This document shows, in pieces, positions 3,905 through 30,232 of a stretch of 31,264 nt of DNA. Source of the stretch: Lachnospiraceae bacterium (GTDB taxonomy: Bacteria; Bacillota_A; Clostridia; Lachnospirales; Lachnospiraceae); contig JAFQCI010000028.1 of assembly GCA_017416505.1 (NCBI GenBank), forward strand, positions 1 through 31,264, given 5' to 3'. The position numbers were made by a program, and so were the translations under genes. Positions within the stretch are counted from its first letter, which is position 1; every line of letters begins with the position of its first letter. The notes beneath the pieces were generated by a model, which worked only from the letters and a program-made list of their open reading frames with translations, ran no database searches and was not told the DNA's origin.

Positions 3905-4660
3905 ATGTTTCAATTAAATAATTTTCTAGATAACCCAAATATGAAGGTAGTTGAACAAAAAGGTCCGTTCCGGGTTTTTGAACATGAGAAGGATTTAAGT
4001 GTAACTCCAGCCAGTGCGGTGAATGCTTATTTTGCTTCGGAAATGAATGTTAGAAAACGTCAGGTTTTAGTGGAATTACAAAAAGGCGGCTGTGTGACAC
4101 AGGCAGGTGCTATGCAGTGGATGCTTGGTAATGTACAGATGGAAACCGGTGTAAAAGGCGTTGGTAACTTTATTGGGAAGATGGTAAGTTCCGCAGTAAC
4201 AAAGGAATCAGCAGTAAAACCAATTTACCGTGGAAACGGAATCATGATGTTGGAACCTACCTATAAACATATTATTTTAATGGATGTTTCAGAATGGGGT
4301 TCTGTAGTCTTGGATGATGGACTGTTTTTAGCTTGCGAAGAAACTCTTCAACAAAAAGTAGTAGCCCGCTCTAATTTTTCTTCCGGTGTATTGGGAGGAG
4401 AGGGATTATTTAATTTATCTCTTATGGGAAATGGAATTGCAGTTTTGGAAAGCCCTGTTCCAAAGGAAGAATTAATTTTATTTAATCTGGAAAATGATGT
4501 GGTGAAAATCGATGGAAATATGGCAATTGCCTGGTCTGGCTCTTTGCAGTTTACGGTAGAAAAGTCAGGTAAGAGTTTGATTGGTTCTGCAGCATCTGGA
4601 GAAGGCTTTGTCAATGTGTACCGTGGAACCGGTAAAATTTTAATGGCACCAACAGCATAG
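3905..4660 (+). CDS. AIM24 family protein, copy 1
   Basis: 251-residue all-beta protein of the AIM24 (TIGR00266/DUF124) family, related to the fold of the mitochondrial protein Aim24. Diagnostic stretches are GAMQWMLGNV, KPIYRGNGIMMLEPT, VVLDDGLFLAC, LGGEGLFNLSL and the closing GTGKILMAPT. There is no signal peptide or membrane segment, so it is cytoplasmic. AAGGAGAG precedes the ATG by 8 nt. It lies 13 bp upstream of a paralog. Function in bacteria is poorly defined; some relatives are linked to envelope or membrane-stress clusters, and the context here (PadR, TetR, exporters) would fit but does not prove that. Confidence 0.8.
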   Translation: MFQLNNFLDNPNMKVVEQKGPFRVFEHEKDLSVTPASAVNAYFASEMNVRKRQVLVELQKGGCVTQAGAMQWMLGNVQMETGVKGVGNFIGKMVSSAVTKESAVKPIYRGNGIMMLEPTYKHIILMDVSEWGSVVLDDGLFLACEETLQQKVVARSNFSSGVLGGEGLFNLSLMGNGIAVLESPVPKEELILFNLENDVVKIDGNMAIAWSGSLQFTVEKSGKSLIGSAASGEGFVNVYRGTGKILMAPTA

Positions 4661-4673
4661 GGGGAAGAAGGAT

Positions 4674-5561
4674 ATGGTAAATAGTACTGTTTTAAATCAT
4701 GGTAATTTAAAAGAAATCGCCTCTATGGGTAATTTTCATGTATTAGAACATGAAAAAGATTTAAGTGTTTCAGCTTATACCGCAGTAAATGAATTTTTTG
4801 CTTCTAAAATGAATGTAAAAAAGCGACAAGTATTATTGGAATTAGATGGGAAGAGTACTTATATTGTTCAAAGGGGAGCCATGCAGTGGATGAGCGGAAA
4901 CATCACCACAGATTCTAATGTAAAGGGAGTAGGAGATTTCCTTGGAAAGATGGTAAGTTCTGCCGTAACCAATGAAAGTGCAGTAAAGCCTATTTATAGA
5001 GGACAGGGACAGATGATGTTAGAACCTACATACCGTCACATTATTTTATTAGATGTATCAAAATGGGGTAGTGTGGTATTAGATGATGGTTTATTTTTGG
5101 CTTGCGATGGAACCCTATTACAAAAAACAGTAGCAAGAAGAAATGTTTCTTCGGCTGTATTAGGCGGAGAAGGCTTGTTTAATCTGTCATTAACCGGAAA
5201 TGGAATTGCTGCATTGGAAAGTAAGGTTCCTTATGAAGAATTAATTGAAGTTATATTGGATAATGATGTAATGAAGATTGACGGAAATATGGCAATTGCC
5301 TGGTCCGGTTCTTTACAGTTTACGGTAGAAAAGTCAGGAAAGAGTCTGGTTGGTTCAGCAGTATCCGGAGAAGGTTTTGTTAATGTATATCGTGGAACTG
5401 GAAAAATCCTGCTGGCTCCAACTGCTTTTGATAATGCAAATCCGGTGGCTTCCAGCAGTAATACAGGGCAGAGTCAAAGCAAAACCAGTTCTACAGGAAC
5501 TCTTTCTAAGGCAGGTAAGGTATTGGATACGGTTACGGATGTATTGGATTTATTTACTTAA
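4674..5561 (+). CDS. AIM24 family protein, copy 2, with a Ser/Thr-rich tail
   Basis: Tandem paralog of the preceding gene, sharing the same motifs (GAMQWMSGN, RGQGQMMLEPTYRHIIL, WGSVVLDDGLFLAC, LGGEGLFNLSLTGNG, DGNMAIAWSGSLQFTVEKSG). It differs in having about 43 extra C-terminal residues, rich in Ser, Thr and Asn (ASSSNTGQSQSKTSSTGTLS) and ending in a short helix (LDTVTDVLDLFT). The linker and terminal helix may recruit a partner. The two genes are almost identical at the nucleotide level over the DGNMAIAWSGSLQFTVEKSGKSL segment, which suggests a fairly recent duplication or gene conversion. The pair ends at a strong terminator. Confidence 0.8.
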   Translation: MVNSTVLNHGNLKEIASMGNFHVLEHEKDLSVSAYTAVNEFFASKMNVKKRQVLLELDGKSTYIVQRGAMQWMSGNITTDSNVKGVGDFLGKMVSSAVTNESAVKPIYRGQGQMMLEPTYRHIILLDVSKWGSVVLDDGLFLACDGTLLQKTVARRNVSSAVLGGEGLFNLSLTGNGIAALESKVPYEELIEVILDNDVMKIDGNMAIAWSGSLQFTVEKSGKSLVGSAVSGEGFVNVYRGTGKILLAPTAFDNANPVASSSNTGQSQSKTSSTGTLSKAGKVLDTVTDVLDLFT

Positions 5562-8833: not shown

Positions 8834-9453
8834 ATCACTTACAAATACTTTTAGTGGATGATGAGCCTTTATTACTGGAGAGTCTGGAAATCATTCTTAC
8901 TTTAAATCAAATGGAGATTGTAGGAAAAGCACGAGACGGACAGGAAGCCTTGGCGGTACTTTCAGAGAAAACATGTGATTTGGCACTGGTGGATTTAAAC
9001 ATGAAGGGAATGGGCGGAATCGAATTGATTTCCCACATGAAAAAGGAATATCCCCTGGTAAAAATACTGGTATTAACCACCTTTTATGATGATAAAAATA
9101 TTAGTCAGGCCATTGGTGGAGGTGCAGACGGATATTTGTTAAAAGACAGCGGAAAGGATGCCATTCTTGGAGCCATTGAGCAGATTATGGGTGGAAGAGA
9201 TGTCATTGACCGAAAGGTGATGGAACGATTGTCTGCACTTATGAATGGGAAGAGTAAGGGAACTTCGCTTTTCGAGGGAATGACCAGCAGGGAGCAGGAA
9301 ATATGCACGTTGTTAGCGAAGGGACTTACCAATAAGCAGATTGCAGAAACACTTTTTATTTCGGAAGGAACAGTGAAAAATTATATTTCTGGGATTTATG
9401 AAAAAACCGGGATACATGACAGGGCAAAGCTGATTGTCGAGATTCATGGGTGA
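8830..9453 (+). CDS. LuxR/NarL-type response regulator
   Basis: 207 residues. The receiver domain has DDE at 10-12, phosphoacceptor Asp55 in LALVDLNMKG, Thr in VLTTFYDD and Lys in YLLKDSG. The C-terminal LuxR helix-turn-helix is TSREQEICTLLAKGLTNKQIAETLFISEGTVKNYIS. It pairs with the overlapping kinase and probably activates the permease/ATPase/permease genes beginning at 9686. Its stop codon TGA is also the start of the TGACCCTGGTA repeat. Confidence 0.9.
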   Translation: MNHLQILLVDDEPLLLESLEIILTLNQMEIVGKARDGQEALAVLSEKTCDLALVDLNMKGMGGIELISHMKKEYPLVKILVLTTFYDDKNISQAIGGGADGYLLKDSGKDAILGAIEQIMGGRDVIDRKVMERLSALMNGKSKGTSLFEGMTSREQEICTLLAKGLTNKQIAETLFISEGTVKNYISGIYEKTGIHDRAKLIVEIHG

Positions 9454-9461
9454 CCCTGGTA
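9450..9461. repeat. Right 12-bp inverted repeat bracketing the two-component genes
   Basis: GTGACCCTGGTA, partner of 7594-7605; it overlaps the regulator stop codon. Related TGACCC sequences occur at 9653-9658 and 30977-30982. Confidence 0.6.
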
Positions 9462-9468
9462 TCATAAC

Positions 9469-9510
9469 ATATGACCGTAACTGTTCACACATGAACAGTT
9501 ACATATGACC
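9469..9510. mobile_element. 26-bp palindromic mini-element with perfect 8-bp direct repeats
   Basis: The element is 9477-9502: arm GTAACTGTTCA, spacer CACA, arm TGAACAGTTAC. ATATGACC flanks it on both sides (9469-9476 and 9503-9510). The whole element is two inverted arms with almost nothing between them. It is the same length as the copy at 12619-12644. Confidence 0.75.
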
Positions 9511-9547
9511 ACAGTCATAGTGAAATTATGACTGTGGTTACTTTTTT
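9508..9547 (+). terminator. Rho-independent terminator after the two-component genes
   Basis: Perfect 12-bp stem ACCACAGTCATA (9508-9519) and TATGACTGTGGT (9527-9538), then TACTTTTTT. It overlaps the right direct repeat of the mini-element by three bases. Confidence 0.85.
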
Positions 9548-9591
9548 GTTGGAGTTTCTTATGTTAAGATTTAACCTGTAGAAAAGCTAAA

Positions 9592-9658
9592 GAATTGTGG
9601 GAGCACAAAAGTGTGTAGCAATTCGTAGGTATTATGGGGTCAAAATACCTTTTGACCC
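9592..9658. repeat. Two hairpins in the leader of the ABC exporter genes
   Basis: Hairpin 1: GAATTG (9592-9597) with CAATTC (9619-9624), plus an inner GCAC/GTGT pairing. Hairpin 2: GGGTCAAAA (9637-9645), loop TACC, TTTTGACCC (9650-9658). The segment CTTTTGACCCTA also occurs at 30973-30984. This is either a dispersed repeat or, for hairpin 2, the response regulator binding site upstream of the exporter genes. Confidence 0.55.
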
Positions 9659-9685
9659 TAACATCATAAAAGTAGGAGGATGGTT

Positions 9686-10858
9686 ATGGAACAGAAATTA
9701 TCTGCAATGAGGTATGTGAAAAATAACAAGCGACGAGTTGCAGTTTTGGTAGTAAGTTTATCACTTTGTTTTATGCTTACTTATCTTGTGAACTTTTTAT
9801 TATCTTCAACGGAGGAAACTTTTCGGATTATGCTTGTAGATAATACAGAGAAGATTCAATATGTGAGGTTAGCAGGAAGTTCCTTAGGGATTGATGTGGA
9901 ACACGTAGAACAAGAAGAACTCCATCAATTATATTTGGAGAAAAATCTTGAACTGACTGAGAAGCTGAAAGGTTATGAAGCAGTATCAGAGGCATTTTAT
10001 GCCCAGATTCTTTATAATGAGGTAAAGGCTGCCATAGGAGAATGGCAGGGGGAAATTCCATTGGTGGAGAAGGAACAGGTTCCAATTATTCTTGAACATT
10101 ATGGAACCAAGGTTTGTGAAGGAAGAATGCCGGAACATCCGGGAGAAATCGTTTTAGACAGGGCTTCCATGAAAAATGGTGATTATGAATTAAACGACTA
10201 TTTTGACATGGAAAGTCTGGATGATACTGTGAAAATTGTTGGGATTTTGGATTGTGACAGTTATTTTGGCTGTGGAATCCCTAGTGAGGAATATCAGTTA
10301 TCTACCAGTATCGTGATACTTTCCGATGGAAGCATTCAGGATATTACGACGTTGTTAGAACAAGAAGGTATCTTTGTAAGAGAAGGTTTTGATACCGTTG
10401 TGGATGCCAAGGTGGGAAAAGAAGATTTACAAAAGAATGTCATTGATGTCATTGGTAAGTCCGAAAGTGTGATATATATTGGTGTTATGCTGCTCCTGTC
10501 TTTGTCCCTTTATATCGTTTACACCATGTATTTAAGGGACAGACGAAATGAGTGGTGTCTGTATTGCTCCATTGGTTATTCCAAAAAAGAAATATATCGT
10601 TCCATATTGCGGGAGCTTTTCTTTACCTTTGGACTTGCGGTTGTGATTGGAGCAGGTTTAACCATGATGTTAGTGGTGGGACTTGATTTTGGAATGATAC
10701 GCCCGATGGGAATCAGATGCCGGTATTTTTATCCGGAAACCATATTAGAAATATTATGTGCCTATATGCTGCTGATAGGATTATTACAAATTCCTATCCG
10801 GTATGCACTTTATAAAATACGCACCATAGATGCCATGGAGGATGATTTATATGTTTGA
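9686..10858 (+). CDS. FtsX/MacB-type ABC exporter permease 1
   Basis: About 390 residues. One membrane helix near residues 16-36 (VAVLVVSLSLCFMLTYLVNF), a large extracytoplasmic domain, then three C-terminal helices (about 265-380), the usual FtsX-like layout. MRDRRNEWCLYCSIGYSKKEIYRSIL-type residues mark the conserved cytoplasmic loop. I chose the ATG at 9686 because GGAGG lies 6 nt upstream; the ATG at 9680 touches it. The end overlaps the ATPase gene by 8 bp. It works with the ATPase and second permease, probably exporting or removing a peptide, lipid or drug sensed by the adjoining two-component system. Confidence 0.8.
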   Translation: MEQKLSAMRYVKNNKRRVAVLVVSLSLCFMLTYLVNFLLSSTEETFRIMLVDNTEKIQYVRLAGSSLGIDVEHVEQEELHQLYLEKNLELTEKLKGYEAVSEAFYAQILYNEVKAAIGEWQGEIPLVEKEQVPIILEHYGTKVCEGRMPEHPGEIVLDRASMKNGDYELNDYFDMESLDDTVKIVGILDCDSYFGCGIPSEEYQLSTSIVILSDGSIQDITTLLEQEGIFVREGFDTVVDAKVGKEDLQKNVIDVIGKSESVIYIGVMLLLSLSLYIVYTMYLRDRRNEWCLYCSIGYSKKEIYRSILRELFFTFGLAVVIGAGLTMMLVVGLDFGMIRPMGIRCRYFYPETILEILCAYMLLIGLLQIPIRYALYKIRTIDAMEDDLYV

Positions 10859-11522
10859 GATTAAAAATATTACGATGATTTATGATATGGAAAAAACAGA
10901 GAAAGTTTATGCTTTAGGAGGCTTTGATTTATCCCTCCCGGATAAGGGTCTGATTGGGATTATCGGCCCTTCCGGAAGCGGAAAATCTACTTTGATGTAC
11001 TGTCTTTCTACATTGAAAAAGCCTACAGATGGAAAGATTCTTTATAATGGAAAAGAGATTACAAGGTTAAAAGACAGCGAGAGGGAAATCCTTAGGAGAA
11101 ATGAATTTGGTTTTGTATTTCAAAGACATTTTCTGGTGCCTTATATGTCTGCACTGGACAATGTAACAGTGGCAGCTACAAAGCATGAGAAAGAAACCAT
11201 TGAAAAGGCAAAAGGACTATTGAAGGGCTTTGGTTTGGGAGAAAAAGAAATTTCGAAACGCCCATCGAAACTTTCTGGTGGACAAAGACAAAGAGCTGCC
11301 ATTGCAAGGGCAATGATAAATGAACCAAAAGTTTTGTTTGCGGATGAACCTACGGCAGCACTTGACCATGAAAATGCCTTTGCAGTTATGGAGATTCTTA
11401 AAGAATATGCGAAAAACAATCTGGTACTTGTCATTACCCATGACCGCTCTATTTTGAAAGATGCAGACAGTGTGATTGAAATGTGGGATGGAAATATCAG
11501 TGCGATTAAAGGTGGTGAATAA
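10851..11522 (+). CDS. ABC exporter ATPase (MacB/LolD type)
   Basis: 223 residues. Walker A GPSGSGKST, Q-loop FVFQRHFLVPYMSALDNV, signature LSGGQRQRAAIARA, Walker B VLFADEPTAALD and the H-loop VITHD are all present. This is the energising subunit of a MacB/LolD-type exporter, in one operon with a permease on each side. I chose the ATG at 10851, nine bases after GGAGG and overlapping the permease stop; the frame is open to an ATG at 10830, but that would lengthen the protein by seven residues unlike the family. Confidence 0.9.
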   Translation: MFEIKNITMIYDMEKTEKVYALGGFDLSLPDKGLIGIIGPSGSGKSTLMYCLSTLKKPTDGKILYNGKEITRLKDSEREILRRNEFGFVFQRHFLVPYMSALDNVTVAATKHEKETIEKAKGLLKGFGLGEKEISKRPSKLSGGQRQRAAIARAMINEPKVLFADEPTAALDHENAFAVMEILKEYAKNNLVLVITHDRSILKDADSVIEMWDGNISAIKGGE

Positions 11523-11524
11523 GA

Positions 11525-12619
11525 TTGAATCCTTTTTCAGCAATATATTTTGTGAAAGAAAATAAAAAACGTTGTTTTTTACTAATATTTATGATTTTTT
11601 TAAGCTTTGGCGTGTACCTTGGGGGCTTATATGTTACAAATCCTTTGGATAACTGGAAAACTACGATGGATTATTATGATAAGATAGTCAGTGTAAGTAA
11701 TAATTCAGCGGATGGACAGGATTATCAATGGTTTCTTCATGAACTGGAAAGCGATGGCAAGGTTACTATCTTAGAAATGGGAACTTATAATGGATTTCAA
11801 TGGCATAGTATTATGGGTTTTGATAATGGAATTTGCAGCTTTACTTTTCGAAGTGTAGAGGATTTTAAGATATACTGTGAACATTTTGGGATAGAGTGTG
11901 ACTTTGAACAGTTAAAAGAGCAAAGTATGATTATGAGTGAAAAATTCGCAAAAAATAAAGGGTTTTCCATAGGTGATAAGGTGGATAAAAACGGGTATAG
12001 CATGATTTACAGTGAGTTTACTCTGGATGCGGTAACGAAGGAGGATGGGTATACCTTATATTTTATTACCAGCGAAGAGGACATAACCTCAAGTGCCACA
12101 CTTTTAGGAAATGGCATGGAGGGAAAGGAACTTTATGATTATGTTTACAGTCTTCAAAATCAGTTGGAAGACAAAAGCAATATTTATGTATATCCGGGAC
12201 TACGAGAGGATATAGAGGGTCAATTTGAAATATTTAATGTCATATATATCTTTATTGCAATTTTAATTTCCATAATACTTGCAATTACCATCCATGCAGC
12301 CTTTGTGGGGATGTACCAGAGAAGAGAGTTTGAGTTTTCTGTTTATCGTGCCATAGGCATTTCAAAGAAACGTATCATTGGGAAGATTGTAAGTGAATTG
12401 TTATTACTTGATTTGGTTGCTCTTATCATAGGAGCGGGGATTACAGTTCTTGGTATTTACCTTTTGAATCATCTGGTACTTTATCCGATTGGGAAGTATT
12501 TATGTTATTATGATTCTTTGGCATTGGGGGCTTTACTTCTATGCAATATTATAAGCATCCTTCCATTGATGGTGACAAGATGCAGACAGATGTTAAAAAC
12601 AGATATTTGTGAATATTAG
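11525..12619 (+). CDS. FtsX-type ABC exporter permease 2
   Basis: 364 residues starting at TTG, 2 bp after the ATPase stop, with GGTGGT upstream. One N-terminal helix (about 17-34), a large extracytoplasmic domain (about 35-235), then three helices. REFEFSVYRAIGISKKRIIG is the typical FtsX cytoplasmic loop. It pairs with permease 1 as a heterodimer around the ATPase. Its TAG stop is unusual: TA belongs to the left 8-bp repeat GAATATTA and G is the first base of an inserted mini-element. Removing the insertion would restore GAA TAT TAA, so the protein end is unchanged. Confidence 0.8.
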   Translation: MNPFSAIYFVKENKKRCFLLIFMIFLSFGVYLGGLYVTNPLDNWKTTMDYYDKIVSVSNNSADGQDYQWFLHELESDGKVTILEMGTYNGFQWHSIMGFDNGICSFTFRSVEDFKIYCEHFGIECDFEQLKEQSMIMSEKFAKNKGFSIGDKVDKNGYSMIYSEFTLDAVTKEDGYTLYFITSEEDITSSATLLGNGMEGKELYDYVYSLQNQLEDKSNIYVYPGLREDIEGQFEIFNVIYIFIAILISIILAITIHAAFVGMYQRREFEFSVYRAIGISKKRIIGKIVSELLLLDLVALIIGAGITVLGIYLLNHLVLYPIGKYLCYYDSLALGALLLCNIISILPLMVTRCRQMLKTDICEY

Positions 12620-12652
12620 TTCCTGTTCATGTGCGAACAGTAACGAATATTA
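12611..12652. mobile_element. 26-bp mini-element inserted in a stop codon, perfect 8-bp direct repeats
   Basis: The element is 12619-12644: GTTCCTGTTC, ATGTGC, GAACAGTAAC. GAATATTA flanks it at 12611-12618 and 12645-12652. The insertion point is within the permease stop codon and a stop is rebuilt on both sides of the element. Confidence 0.75.
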
Positions 12653-12660
12653 AAACGGAT

Positions 12661-12687
12661 AAGCCGGGGGAAACCCTGGCTTTTTTT
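12661..12687 (+). terminator. Rho-independent terminator of the exporter operon
   Basis: AAGCCGGGG, GAA, ACCCTGGCTT hairpin (one G.T pair) followed by seven T residues. Confidence 0.85.
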
Positions 12688-12714
12688 CGTTATAAGAAAA
12701 AGTTATAGCAAATC

Positions 12715-12858
12715 ATTACTTTTTTGAATTACAAATAATTCAAAAAGTAATTGACATTCTTGGTGATGTGAAGTAAGATATAAAACATAGTAAAACAGTA
12801 GGAAATAATTAAAAACAAAAGGCATATGATATAAGTGAGGATTTCATTAGCTGAAATC
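12715..12858 (+). promoter_or_regulatory. Regulatory palindrome, promoter and leader hairpin of the amino acid transporter operon
   Basis: A long palindrome (arms 12715-12730 and 12737-12751, ATTACTTTTT.GAATT, one base bulged) abuts the promoter TTGACA (12751-12756), 17-bp spacer, TAAGAT (12774-12779). Its place just upstream of and touching the -35 box suits an activator such as the LysR regulator encoded at 16018. A small hairpin GATTTCA/TGAAATC (12840-12858) lies just before the GGAGGTG ribosome site of the first permease gene. Confidence 0.55.
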
Positions 12859-12877
12859 AGACGGAGGTGAAGAACGT

Positions 12878-13549
12878 ATGGATTTTGAATTTATATCTAC
12901 ATATATTCCAACCTATATCAAGGCAGCACAACTGACGATAAAAATTGCTGCATTTGGAATTGCAGGTGCATTTGTAGTAGGAATCATTTGTAGTTTCATA
13001 AAAGAATTAAAAATTCCTGTATTAAGACATATGGTACAAATATATATTGAGTTATCCAGAAATACCCCACTATTAATACAATTGTTCTTTTTGTACTTTG
13101 GATTACCGAAGGTGGGAATTGTCTTAAGTTCTGAAACCTGTGGAGTCGTGGGATTGATTTTCTTAGGAGGAAGCTATATGGCAGAGGGATTTCGAACCGG
13201 GATTGACAATGTACCACAGGTTCAAAGGGAATCTGCTTATAGTTTAGGAATGACGAAAAAGCAGACCTTTTGGAAGATTATTCTGCCCCAGGCAGTAGCC
13301 ACCAGTGTACCGGTGTTTTGTGCCAATGTGATATTTCTTTTAAAGGAAACCTCCGTATTCAGTGCAGTCGCACTGGCAGATTTAATGTATGTTACCAAGG
13401 ATTTGATTGGACTTTATTATAAAACGGATGAGGCACTTATGATGCTGGTAGTTTCGTATCTTATCATACTTCTTCCTATATCATTGGTAAGTGCATGGAT
13501 AGAGAGGAGGGTAAGATATGCAGGATTCGGGAATTCAGGTTCTCTTTGA
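12878..13549 (+). CDS. Polar amino acid ABC transporter permease 1 (HisM type)
   Basis: 223 residues with about five membrane helices. IYIELSRNTPLLIQLFFLYFGL is the conserved polar amino acid permease start, and the EAA loop reads RESAYSLGMTKKQTFWKIILPQAV, which contacts the ATPase. GGAGGTG lies 8 nt before the ATG. It overlaps the second permease gene by 32 bp. With the other subunits it imports an amino acid, probably cysteine or cystine judged from the binding protein. Confidence 0.88.
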   Translation: MDFEFISTYIPTYIKAAQLTIKIAAFGIAGAFVVGIICSFIKELKIPVLRHMVQIYIELSRNTPLLIQLFFLYFGLPKVGIVLSSETCGVVGLIFLGGSYMAEGFRTGIDNVPQVQRESAYSLGMTKKQTFWKIILPQAVATSVPVFCANVIFLLKETSVFSAVALADLMYVTKDLIGLYYKTDEALMMLVVSYLIILLPISLVSAWIERRVRYAGFGNSGSL

Positions 13550-14989: not shown

Positions 14990-15106
14990 CTGAAATTTAA
15001 ATAGGCAATTCCGAAACTAAAATATTTTATGTGAAAGTGATACAAAATGAACAAAAACTCAATATAGATTTTTGATAGTTTCGCAATTACCTATCTGAAA
15101 ATTTAA
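14990..15106. mobile_element. MITE-like repeat with terminal inverted repeats inside the transporter operon
   Basis: 19-bp ends match at 17 positions: ATAGGCAATTCCGAAACTA (15001-15019) and the inverse of TAGTTTCGCAATTACCTAT (15076-15094). Direct repeats flank it: CTGAAATTTAA (14990-15000) and CTGAAAATTTAA (15095-15106), differing by one A. The left end also occurs at 30144-30162 followed by the same AAAATATTTTAT, and the core recurs at 28198-28234. Confidence 0.65.
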
Positions 15107-24166: not shown

Positions 24167-26135
24167 ATTAGCCATACGGAATATAAAGCGTTCCATCAAT
24201 GATTATGTATTATATATGATTACCATTACTTTGATACTTGCTTTGATGTTTGCTTTTAATTCCATGATGTTTTCGGATTTGATTCTTGGAATGAATGCGC
24301 ATATGTCAGATTACCGGGTTTTGCTGGTATTGTTTTCTATCATTGTTTTGATTGTGGTTTCCTGGTTGATTCATTATATGACAAGATTTATGTTGGAAAG
24401 AAGAAGCAGGGAATTTGGTACCTATTTGATACTGGGTATGGAACATCGGGATGTTTCTAAGATGTTTTTTTATGAAAATATTATATTTGGTATTATTTCT
24501 TTCGTATTAGGGTGTTTTCTTGGAAGTTTTATTTTTCAAGGCTTATTGTTTGTGATATCCACTTTCTTTGGCGAGGAATATAAGATAAAGGCAGACTTTA
24601 ATCTAGCGGCTCTAATTTTAACCATAGTTTATTATTTTTTCATACAATGTATTGTGGTAATTCGCAATCAGAGATATCTGCAAAAACTTAAGATTAAAGA
24701 TTTAATGAATGCCGACAAGGTGAATGAACAGGTTAAGGTAAAGCATGTAAAAAGAAATGTGATTTTGTTTCTTTTATCTATAGTTGCCGGAGTCGTAGCC
24801 TGCAGCAAGGCACCGGTTATTGTAGTAATTATCTGTATGATTCTTTTCATTTATGGTTTTTACATCGGAATATCGGGTATCATGGTGTTACTTATTCAAA
24901 AGTGTAAAAGGTTTAAGTACAAAAAACTAAATGTATTTGTATTCCGTCAACTTTCATCTAAAATAAATACCATGGGATTTACTATGGGAACCATAGCAGT
25001 ATTATTTACCCTGGCGTTATTAAGTAGTAATTATGCCATTGGATTAAGTAATTTTAAGGGTGAAATAGAAAAATATGCTCCTTTTGATATTTGCATTACG
25101 GATTTAGATGCAGGGGAAGACTTTGCAGAAGTAAGGGAGATGTTAAAAGCGGATGGCTGGATAAAAAATGACCTGGTATATAGTATTTATCGCAGTGAAG
25201 ACTCGAAATTTACTGGGATTTTAAAAGATAATCAGGTTTCTGGCGGATATTTTCAGTATGATACTTATATGAGGCTGAGTGATTATAATATTTTAAGAGG
25301 TTTTCTGGGACTAGAGGAAGTAGATTTAAATGACAATGAGTATTTGATTCATTCTGTGGCTTCTGTTTCCAATTATTATGAGGAGTGGCAGAAAGAGAAT
25401 CCTGAGCTTGAAATAAATGGCGAGTTTTATCAATGCAAGGGAGTTTTCGATGAAGATTTTGCCCAAAATGGACAAAATGGAGCCGGATTTATCGTGGTTG
25501 TCCCAGACGCTGTAACAGTGAATATGGAGGTATATTATTCTCAGTATGCCTGTGATACGTTAAAGGAAACAGATAATGACTTATATTTAAAGATTTTAGA
25601 TTATGTTTCTCAGGATGCCGAAAATTGGGCAACTTCCGGTGCAGCTGAGGGTGAATTAGACCATGGTATGGGAATTGACAGTATTTATGTGATTTATGAT
25701 AATGTCATGGTGAAAAATGGTGGTATTGTTTCTGAAGTGGAGGCGGCAATTATTACTGTGGTATCTTCTATTTTTTATGTAGCCTTGGTGTTTATCTGTG
25801 TGGCCCTAACTATTTTAGCGGTGCAGCAGTTAAGCGATGCTGCTAAGTATAAGTTCCGATACAAGGTATTACATCATTTAGGGGTAAATGACCACCAAAA
25901 GTCAAAACTTGTCTTAAAGCAACTGTTGGTTTACTTTGGCTTTCCTATTATGATTCCTGTTATGGTTAGCATGATAATTTCCTTAAAACTGAATCAGGTG
26001 ATGCTAAGCGGAACACAGATACAATCAGATAATTACACTTTTTTTGGATTGGCACTTGTGTTATTCTTAATTGCGTATGGAATTTATTTTAGTGTTACTT
26101 ATATTAATTTTAAACGGAATATTGAAGCAGAGTAA
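24156..26135 (+). CDS. ABC transporter permease, BceB-like
   Basis: 659 residues with ten predicted membrane helices. There are four in the first 240 residues or so, then two more up to about residue 290. A large extracellular domain (about 300-530) lies ahead of the final helices, as in BceB, where it governs peptide specificity. RRSREFGTYLILGMEHRDVSKMFF is the conserved FtsX-like loop. The start is GTG after GGGAGGT, inside the ATPase gene. It forms the sensing and resistance complex with BceA and the kinase. Confidence 0.88.
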   Translation: MLAKLAIRNIKRSINDYVLYMITITLILALMFAFNSMMFSDLILGMNAHMSDYRVLLVLFSIIVLIVVSWLIHYMTRFMLERRSREFGTYLILGMEHRDVSKMFFYENIIFGIISFVLGCFLGSFIFQGLLFVISTFFGEEYKIKADFNLAALILTIVYYFFIQCIVVIRNQRYLQKLKIKDLMNADKVNEQVKVKHVKRNVILFLLSIVAGVVACSKAPVIVVIICMILFIYGFYIGISGIMVLLIQKCKRFKYKKLNVFVFRQLSSKINTMGFTMGTIAVLFTLALLSSNYAIGLSNFKGEIEKYAPFDICITDLDAGEDFAEVREMLKADGWIKNDLVYSIYRSEDSKFTGILKDNQVSGGYFQYDTYMRLSDYNILRGFLGLEEVDLNDNEYLIHSVASVSNYYEEWQKENPELEINGEFYQCKGVFDEDFAQNGQNGAGFIVVVPDAVTVNMEVYYSQYACDTLKETDNDLYLKILDYVSQDAENWATSGAAEGELDHGMGIDSIYVIYDNVMVKNGGIVSEVEAAIITVVSSIFYVALVFICVALTILAVQQLSDAAKYKFRYKVLHHLGVNDHQKSKLVLKQLLVYFGFPIMIPVMVSMIISLKLNQVMLSGTQIQSDNYTFFGLALVLFLIAYGIYFSVTYINFKRNIEAE

Positions 26136-26138
26136 GAA

Positions 26139-26297
26139 GAATAAATGTTACTGTACACTCGTACCTCGTGAACAGTAACGATTCGCAGGCTCATTTAAAG
26201 TTTTGCTTCGCAAAAGGAGCCTACGAACACCTGAATCACTTTCTTACGCACCAAAACAGCAAGTGTTTTGGTGCTGTCTGTACAGTAACGAATAAAT
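26139..26297. mobile_element. 143-bp MITE with 11-bp inverted ends and 8-bp target duplication
   Basis: The element is 26147-26289. Its ends are GTTACTGTACA and TGTACAGTAAC, a perfect 11-bp inverted repeat. GAATAAAT flanks it at 26139-26146 and 26290-26297. Inside are three hairpins: TGTTACTG..CAGTAAC (26147-26179), TTCGCAGGCTC/GAGCCTACGAA (26182-26227, with TTTTGC/GCAAAA nested) and CACCAAAACA/TGTTTTGGTG (26249-26273). It encodes no protein. The ends match the 26-bp mini-elements elsewhere in the window. Confidence 0.8.
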
Positions 26298-26371
26298 ATC
26301 TACCTTTAGATTTCATGAAATCCAAGTATGCAGGGTAAAAAATAATATTAGGAAAGAATCAAAAGGTAGAT
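26298..26371 (+). promoter_or_regulatory. Structured leader of the 2H phosphoesterase gene
   Basis: ATCTACCTTT (26298-26307) pairs with AAAGGTAGAT (26362-26371), enclosing a perfect palindrome GATTTCATGAAATC (26309-26322). The right arm is followed by AAGGTTTTTAAAGGAGG, so the helix ends close to the ribosome site. It may be an mRNA hairpin or an operator. Confidence 0.4.
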
Positions 26372-26922: not shown

Positions 26923-26968
26923 AATAAAAATATTATATGATGTTACAAAGAAATTTATTAAATAAGGA

Positions 26969-30102: not shown

Positions 30103-30143
30103 AAACTGCTCCCAAAAAAGATTTACTATATTTTATGCAATAA

Positions 30144-30180
30144 ATAGGCAATTGCGAAACTAAAATATTTTATATGAGAG
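30144..30180. repeat. Partial copy of the ATTGCGAAACTA repeat family
   Basis: ATAGGCAATTGCGAAACTA (30144-30162) followed by AAATATTTTATATGAGAG, nearly the same as 15001-15035. No right-hand inverted end is found nearby. It lies upstream of the DUF4474 gene (minus strand) and downstream of the HAD gene. The rest of 30103-30232 shows no gene. Confidence 0.6.
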
Positions 30181-30232
30181 GGATTGTTTATGAGCCTCAT
30201 GCAAAGTTCATTTTGTTCTTTATTTAATTTAC

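Follow-up and report, generated by a model that had tools for sequence, protein, structure and literature searches.

The described systems closest to the element reported here are bacterial MITEs, the IS66 family, REPs and, among eukaryotes, the IESs of Paramecium. MITEs are given as 70-300 bp long in an excerpt of one source (PMC3733652) and as about 100-200 bp in an excerpt of another (PMC2229807), and MITEPsy1, of 100 nt, is introduced in part of a third as the first bacterial MITE reported to move (PMC3189936). REPs are characterised, again in excerpt, as palindromes of 20-40 bp with many copies, GTAG/CGTC tags and tyrosine transposases (PMC3733652). For IS66, a portion of a study of Paracoccus tables elements with 8-bp repeats (PMC3281130), while Paramecium IESs have a sharp minimum of 26 bp and a first size peak at 26-28 bp according to the relevant part of PMC3464196. 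The literature searched yielded no report of ends-only bacterial elements of 26-34 bp.

Such an element is found in the window, the 31,264 nucleotides of Lachnospiraceae DNA analysed here. An open reading frame for an FtsX-like permease (PF02687; 11525-12619, plus strand) runs into the ends-only element GTTCCTGTTCATGTGCGAACAGTAAC (12619-12644, no strand assigned), composed of GTTCCTGTTC-ATGTGC-GAACAGTAAC. It is an imperfect palindrome of 26 bp, with 10-base arms paired at 9 of 10 positions, and lies between two exact copies of the 8-bp target duplication GAATATTA, at 12611-12618 and 12645-12652 on the plus strand. An earlier note, made from the sequence alone, had described precisely this arrangement and had argued that an element of this kind has room for transposase recognition sites only, which holds. 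The permease frame ends GAA TAT TAG, its present stop codon (12617-12619) taking its G from the first base of the element. The right-hand repeat, GAA TAT TA, together with the A at 12653, reads as the stop of the empty allele.

Relatives of the site were sought by scanning genome contigs with the permease, which gave 10 loci. The closest (L001, permease 85% identical), from Lachnospiraceae bacterium RGIG1668 of goat cecum, reads CAGATATTTGTGAATATTAAACC, with a single GAATATTA and the stop codon TAA, and is an empty site. The earlier note had predicted that a relative would carry GAATATTAAA and that the element had rebuilt the stop codon; L001 bears out both. Its left flank aligns well with the window up to the stop, and its right flank for two bases more, after which the two diverge until the terminator. 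The next locus, L002 (permease 63% identical), also lacks the element. Because AATATT is palindromic in itself, the 8-bp repeat could in principle be a mere extension of the inverted repeat, and a listing of inverted repeats does give 17-nt arms, 88% complementary, at this site; the single GAATATTA of L001, with its GAA TAT TAA, speaks against this.

Arms of 10 bp (at most one mismatch), a total length of 20-40 bp and an exact 8-bp flanking repeat coincide twice in the window, at 9477 and 12619, and in none of 150 windows simulated with a first-order Markov model. With the empty site, these simulations uphold the earlier argument for insertion over a chance hairpin, and the focal site is a real insertion with an 8-bp duplication. 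The other 26-bp element, GTAACTGTTCACACATGAACAGTTAC (9477-9502, no strand assigned), has perfect 8-bp repeats ATATGACC at 9469-9476 and 9503-9510. The counterpart in L001 has one ATATGACC, which is only consistent with insertion, since the left flank is rearranged there. A possible 20-bp member, GTTACTGTTCACTCAGTAAC (2201-2220, no strand assigned), is bordered by repeats matching at 7 of 8 bases (AAAATACT, 2193-2200; AAAATCCT, 2221-2228), and its counterpart in L001 is too diverged for comparison. The relatives therefore offer one clean empty site, that of L001 at 12619.

The elements at 12619 and 9477 both sit between a stop codon and a terminator-like hairpin. By consensus scan, 12619-12644 is absent from the 11 terminator-like sites in 9300-13000 and lacks the G-C stem and following T run of an intrinsic terminator; the nearest such site is a candidate hairpin just 3' of it (12661-12682, plus strand). 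Other members of the family are better preserved than the focal copy, whose single-strand hairpin is weak at -3.7 kcal/mol; the element at 9477 reaches -9.6. The window also holds repeats of other kinds. A 44-bp repeat with 91% identity occurs at 14998-15041 and 30141-30184, and at the first of these places TAGTTTCGCAATTACCTAT follows inverted, so the site may be an unrelated small MITE of about 95 bp. Elsewhere, 300 nt with 74% identity (4150-4449 and 4919-5218) are common to the neighbouring ORFs 3905-4660 and 4674-5561, perhaps an old tandem duplication.

Palindromes of the focal type are dispersed in other genomes. G001, the draft genome of L001, contains 28 matches to CTGTTCN{2,12}GAACAG against none for the reversed pattern, although a few of the 28 look like chance; six other genomes give 0-10 matches against 0-5. 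Across the 397 genomes from the family of G001, TNACTGTTCN{4,13}GAACAGTNA is present in 22, with 61 matches by our count (21 in G001, six in G280, five in G252, four in G098, three each in G141 and G198, and one or two in the others). The reversed control gave one match each in 16 of the 397, so that a single match is weak without its flanks and the signal lies in several copies per genome (nine genomes against none). This pattern spanned totals of about 24-33 bp, which makes the upper size limit partly a limit of the search. Single ends of the form GTWACTGTTCA are also in large excess over their reversal (G280, 167 against 11; G252, 214 against 4; G098, 50 against 6; G141, 155 against 3). A stricter T-type pattern, used earlier on relatives, was found in one of 61 genomes, G001 itself, and understates the spread because it misses A-type ends. 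In viral contigs, two exact 20-base patterns gave no stretches, and a looser core gave 21 palindromes with at most 4 of 8 flank bases matching, which serve as a negative control.

The flanks of these copies carry the signature of insertion. In the window, L001 and 40 stretches of G001, an initial scan returned 27 repeat-flanked elements of 26, 33, 131-134, 143 and 1883 bp. In all, 80 stretches were taken, around chosen matches rather than all matches, and palindromes of 20-40 bp were collected irrespective of their flanks, giving 105 distinct sequences. At register 8, direct repeats matching at 7 or more of 8 bases border 30 of the 105, where permuted flanks would give 0.25; the signal is confined to this register, with 4-7 and 9-12 close to background. 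Excluding viral loci, and treating separately 22 palindromes that lie close to a MITE core, leaves 85 stand-alone palindromes. The 8-bp repeats that the earlier note looked for around other copies are present at 33 of these (at least 7/8; 15 perfect), where 0.1 would be expected, and at none of the 22 near a core. The remaining 52 of the 85 fall below 7/8; nine of them reach 6/8 and some are MITE ends missed by the core pattern.

By length, 32 repeat-flanked copies comprise twelve of 26 bp, six of 27, six of 33, three of 30, two of 28 and one each of 25, 32 and 34. They constitute a family spread over several genomes of related gut bacteria, each with its own middle sequences. For example, identical or nearly identical 27-bp copies occupy different sites in G280 (L202, 7/8; L204, 8/8; L205, 7/8), as do 30-bp copies in G252 (L112, L113 and L114, all 8/8). 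The genus of G280 consists of one genome, and relatives of G252 supplied four more palindromes, in G429 and G434. A further 30-bp copy in G252 (L111, 293-322) has a changed first base, and its 8-bp repeat TTCTGGCA becomes perfect only when the element's start is moved in by one base, which would suit a cut one base inside the end.

In addition to the first reading, the focal-type palindrome was found to be also the left end of a larger MITE. Many G001 palindromes form the left end of family A, a 133-bp MITE; family B is a 143-bp form with a 33-bp palindrome at one end. The window contains a family B copy (26147-26289, plus strand) between repeats GAATAAAT at 26139-26146 and 26290-26297, with its end palindrome at 26147-26179 and a structured core at 26224-26289. 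Both the 26-bp and the 33-bp palindromes are found alone as well, each with its own 8-bp repeats. Between the left-end hairpin and the right end, the MITE has a second hairpin, then a linker CCTGAATCA..TTACG and then a stem-loop whose loop reads CAGCAAGTG. Seven of nine pairs of the stem-loop core change on both sides in a set of 12 sequences that we chose (covariation score 0.685, against 0.219 when shuffled). With 47 distinct sequences aligned to the model, all nine do (0.807 against 0.226), in an alignment that leans towards the model. When up to 13 candidates were scored in each of the 397 genomes, the core model gave matches in 42 of them. Among 27 core loci (L215-L241), 16 elements of 131-174 bp have 8-bp repeats matching at 7/8 or better, nine of them perfect; many end positions were tried in calling these, and the weakest (L233) may be chance. 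Rfam gave no match at gathering scores across the window, and none up to E=5 within 26100-26350. These elements form a structured MITE superfamily, with a compensating stem-loop core, 8-bp duplications and no Rfam match.

The left-end hairpin of this MITE was compared in 18 chosen sequences. Its outer seven pairs are formed in 98.4% of cells, with changes on both sides at four pairs; the inner pairs are less regular, and roughly half of the 18 sequences have an inner arm that falls short of a full transposon end. A full end does form the inner arm in L087 of G252 and in both MITE families, A and B, of G001. These comparisons suggest that left-end hairpins become independent once they have turned into palindromes composed of two complete ends. 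Two larger composites were met among the MITE loci. In G141, a 1022-bp stretch (L125, 339-1360) with matching 8-bp repeats contains ATCTACTT three times and, between two MITE ends, two small ORFs that look antitoxin-toxin-like by eye, with no transposase; it is perhaps a cassette between two MITEs. The other, L035, holds a 1883-bp IS4-family element with a 442-aa transposase and a perfect 8-bp repeat, and was considered as an autonomous partner. It was ruled out, as its own ends, CAATGTCATTTAGATAAT, and 10-bp repeat, CTGTATGAAC, show it to be another IS, which lies inside a 133-bp MITE. This IS4-in-MITE lies at 2168-4050 of L035, and the window lacks that MITE at the corresponding place near 26968.

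A better candidate for the mover comes from the IS66 family. PF03050 transposases were searched for in nine genomes, three of which had any, and one of these, at L097 in G328, is flanked by the ends GTTACTGTTCAGGGGG. Its 549-aa product, P0001, scores 161.8 bits against NF033517, below the cut-off of 180, and 4e-23 against PF03050; by these matches it is assigned as a divergent IS66 member. Relatives of P0001 at E<=1e-60 occur in 11 of the 397 genomes; the viral contigs have no relative of P0001. At the 11 P0001-type loci, L097 included, matching ends lie on both sides in eight and on one side in three, and the ends of the palindromes are those of an IS66-like element. Perfect 8-bp duplications are present at three of the eight both-ended loci (L171, GCCGGAAT; L173, CAAAGCCC; L179, GTATTAGA); of the other five, four have none and one is at a contig end. 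Other IS66 elements were rejected as partners. None of 30 loci (L140-L169) has a GTWACTGTTCA-like end (at most one mismatch) on both sides and five have one on one side, although these loci extend only about 1500 bases past the match, so that some ends may have been missed.

The ends and the 8-bp duplication of the mini-elements are those of a divergent IS66-like IS, which makes an IS66-type DDE transposase acting in trans the likely mover. For G001 and the window's genome we infer such a mover from the ends and the duplication length, since the G001 draft has no PF03050 match and no P0001 relative at E<=1e-60, and genomes with P0001-type elements hardly overlap those with palindromes or MITEs: among the 11, only G328 is one of the 22 with the palindrome and only G181 one of the 42 with the MITE core. 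Taken together, the 26-bp palindrome is probably an ends-only MITE that moves on its own, likely by means of an IS66-type DDE transposase. That the 26 bp are themselves the transposed unit, and that a P0001-type or IS66-like transposase moves them, is what we infer from these data. The element would consist of two transposon ends (consensus GTTACTGTTC or GTAACTGTTC, plus the complement) around a short middle. It inserted at the permease stop codon, just after the first GAATATTA, and duplicated those eight bases. Its origin would be the left-end hairpin of a MITE of about 133-145 bp, which turned into a palindrome with two complete ends before moving independently.

Other origins of the palindrome were weighed against independent movement. 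Its place at a gene end, just 5' of a terminator-like hairpin, would suit an ordinary regulatory hairpin, or a chance one, at the end of an operon with a fortuitous repeat. The empty site, the simulated windows and the family-wide repeats counter this, as do the few flank matches of the viral palindromes, and it has next to no probability. Movement by a RAYT (HUH tyrosine) transposase is not known to leave a target duplication. That the palindrome is of the REP type, with a RAYT as its mover, is very improbable here: the size does fit REPs, given as 20-40 bp with many copies in the excerpt cited above (PMC3733652), but the GTAG/CGTC tetranucleotide is absent (the ends are GTTAC/GTAAC), and an 8-bp duplication and IS66-type ends are found instead.

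Deletion in place had to be considered because the palindrome is also the left end of a larger MITE. On this account a MITE of about 133-145 bp entered the site and was later reduced by deletion to the palindrome, still between its target repeats, in the manner of solo LTRs. The deletion would take place between two direct repeats of about 11-14 bp, one being the inner copy within the left palindrome and the other the right end, and recombination of this kind is proposed for solo TIRs of Paramecium IESs in a part of PMC3464196. The palindromes are indeed the left ends of MITEs of the same genome in G001 and in G252 (L087), and one in G280 (L206) is in a MITE-like context. Moreover, when copies with two or more mismatches are disregarded, the repeats are mismatched at 8 of 10 repeat-flanked 26-bp solos of G001 and at 3 of 11 of its 131-143-bp MITEs, as expected if the solos are older or derived. 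Excision by transposase of the piece between the inner left end and the right end was rejected, as both tips point the same way: with the inner left copy and the right end in the same orientation, a transposase cannot cut the piece between them as an element. In the sequences, inverted pairs are formed only by the palindrome's outer and inner ends or by the MITE's two outer ends. The arms themselves bear on a deletion by recombination. The family A inner arm has GAACAGTTAC at its end where the right end has GAACAGTAAC; 11 identical bases precede the difference and two follow it, so that most deletions should give mixed arms. Instead, the two arms are symmetric at their third base in 29 of the 32 repeat-flanked copies across all genomes. 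Among the 12 of 26 bp (window and G001), seven are A/A and three T/T, against deletion; one is C/T (L055) and one, L119, is repeat-flanked with mixed arms, as deletion predicts. In G252, the sole MITE seen has the right end GAACTGTAAC, whereas all four solos have GAACAGTAAC. No site was found that is a solo palindrome in one relative and a full MITE in another, the 2201 and 9477 sites having been looked at in L001. In-place deletion is disfavoured by the arm symmetry, and we regard it as unlikely, though clearly ahead of the REP-type and chance origins.

If the palindrome does move on its own, its ends must be paired over a very short distance. A 26-bp duplex is too short and too stiff for its ends to meet. 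One speculative solution is that the palindrome extrudes as a cruciform, each hairpin arm of which would resemble one double-stranded transposon end. The two tips would then lie side by side at the cruciform junction, where cuts at both 3' ends and joining 8 bp apart could follow. When six copies were folded as single strands, four gave hairpins of 11-15 bp with predicted energies between -9.6 and -15.1 kcal/mol, and the other two, the 33-bp B form and the focal copy, gave -7.1 and -3.7 kcal/mol; the weak predicted fold of the last does not favour a cruciform step for that copy as it now is. A self-synapsing 26-bp mobile unit, with its cruciform arms serving as paired ends for an IS66-type DDE transposase, is a tentative proposal that we hold to be somewhat less probable than its opposite. 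If true, the covarying left-end hairpin of the parent MITE would be the form that gives birth to such units.

To our knowledge, all elements described so far with a DDE-type target duplication are longer than 26 bp. If the 26 bp are the mobile unit, they lower the known minimum size of DDE-type transposable elements. Such a unit would also permit a direct test of how a transposase pairs ends that are too close to loop, and would account for short, dispersed, REP-like palindromes that are mobile by a different chemistry. In addition, palindromic ends that are complete as transposons could mobilise any DNA between two copies.

Compared with known systems, the mini-elements share most with bacterial MITEs such as MITEPsy1, RUP and Correia/NEMIS: they are non-coding, have IS-like inverted ends and a duplication of fixed length, and occur in many dispersed copies. 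The focal element itself combines a non-coding sequence, terminal inverted repeats, the fixed 8-bp duplication and one clean empty site, and its ends recur on an autonomous IS (both sides at 8 of 11 P0001-type loci), in genomes other than that of the window. The described MITEs are larger, whereas the elements here are 26-34 bp and made of ends only; at 26 bp the focal one lies outside the usual 70-300 bp, a length that describes known cases and is not part of the definition. The 8-bp target duplication looked for in an IS66-mobilised element is found in the mini-elements and the IS66 elements alike, and the first 10-12 end bases are identical to those of the divergent IS66 subgroup. In contrast to IS66 elements, the mini-elements carry no transposase, and canonical IS66 elements of the same genomes (L143, L164) have ends GTAA[CG]CGTCAAATAA. 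With REPs and REPINs, and their RAYTs, they share dispersed palindromes of 20-40 bp, but not the GTAG/CGTC tag, having 8-bp duplications and a putative DDE-type partner instead. In Paramecium, a DDE-type (domesticated piggyBac) transposase handles units on the 26-bp scale, which offers a precedent, by analogy, for such an enzyme acting on 26-bp units; IESs differ in being eukaryotic and in their programmed excision at TA, and no relation is claimed. The best reading is that the focal element is one of a family of REP-sized, ends-only MITEs with IS66-type ends.
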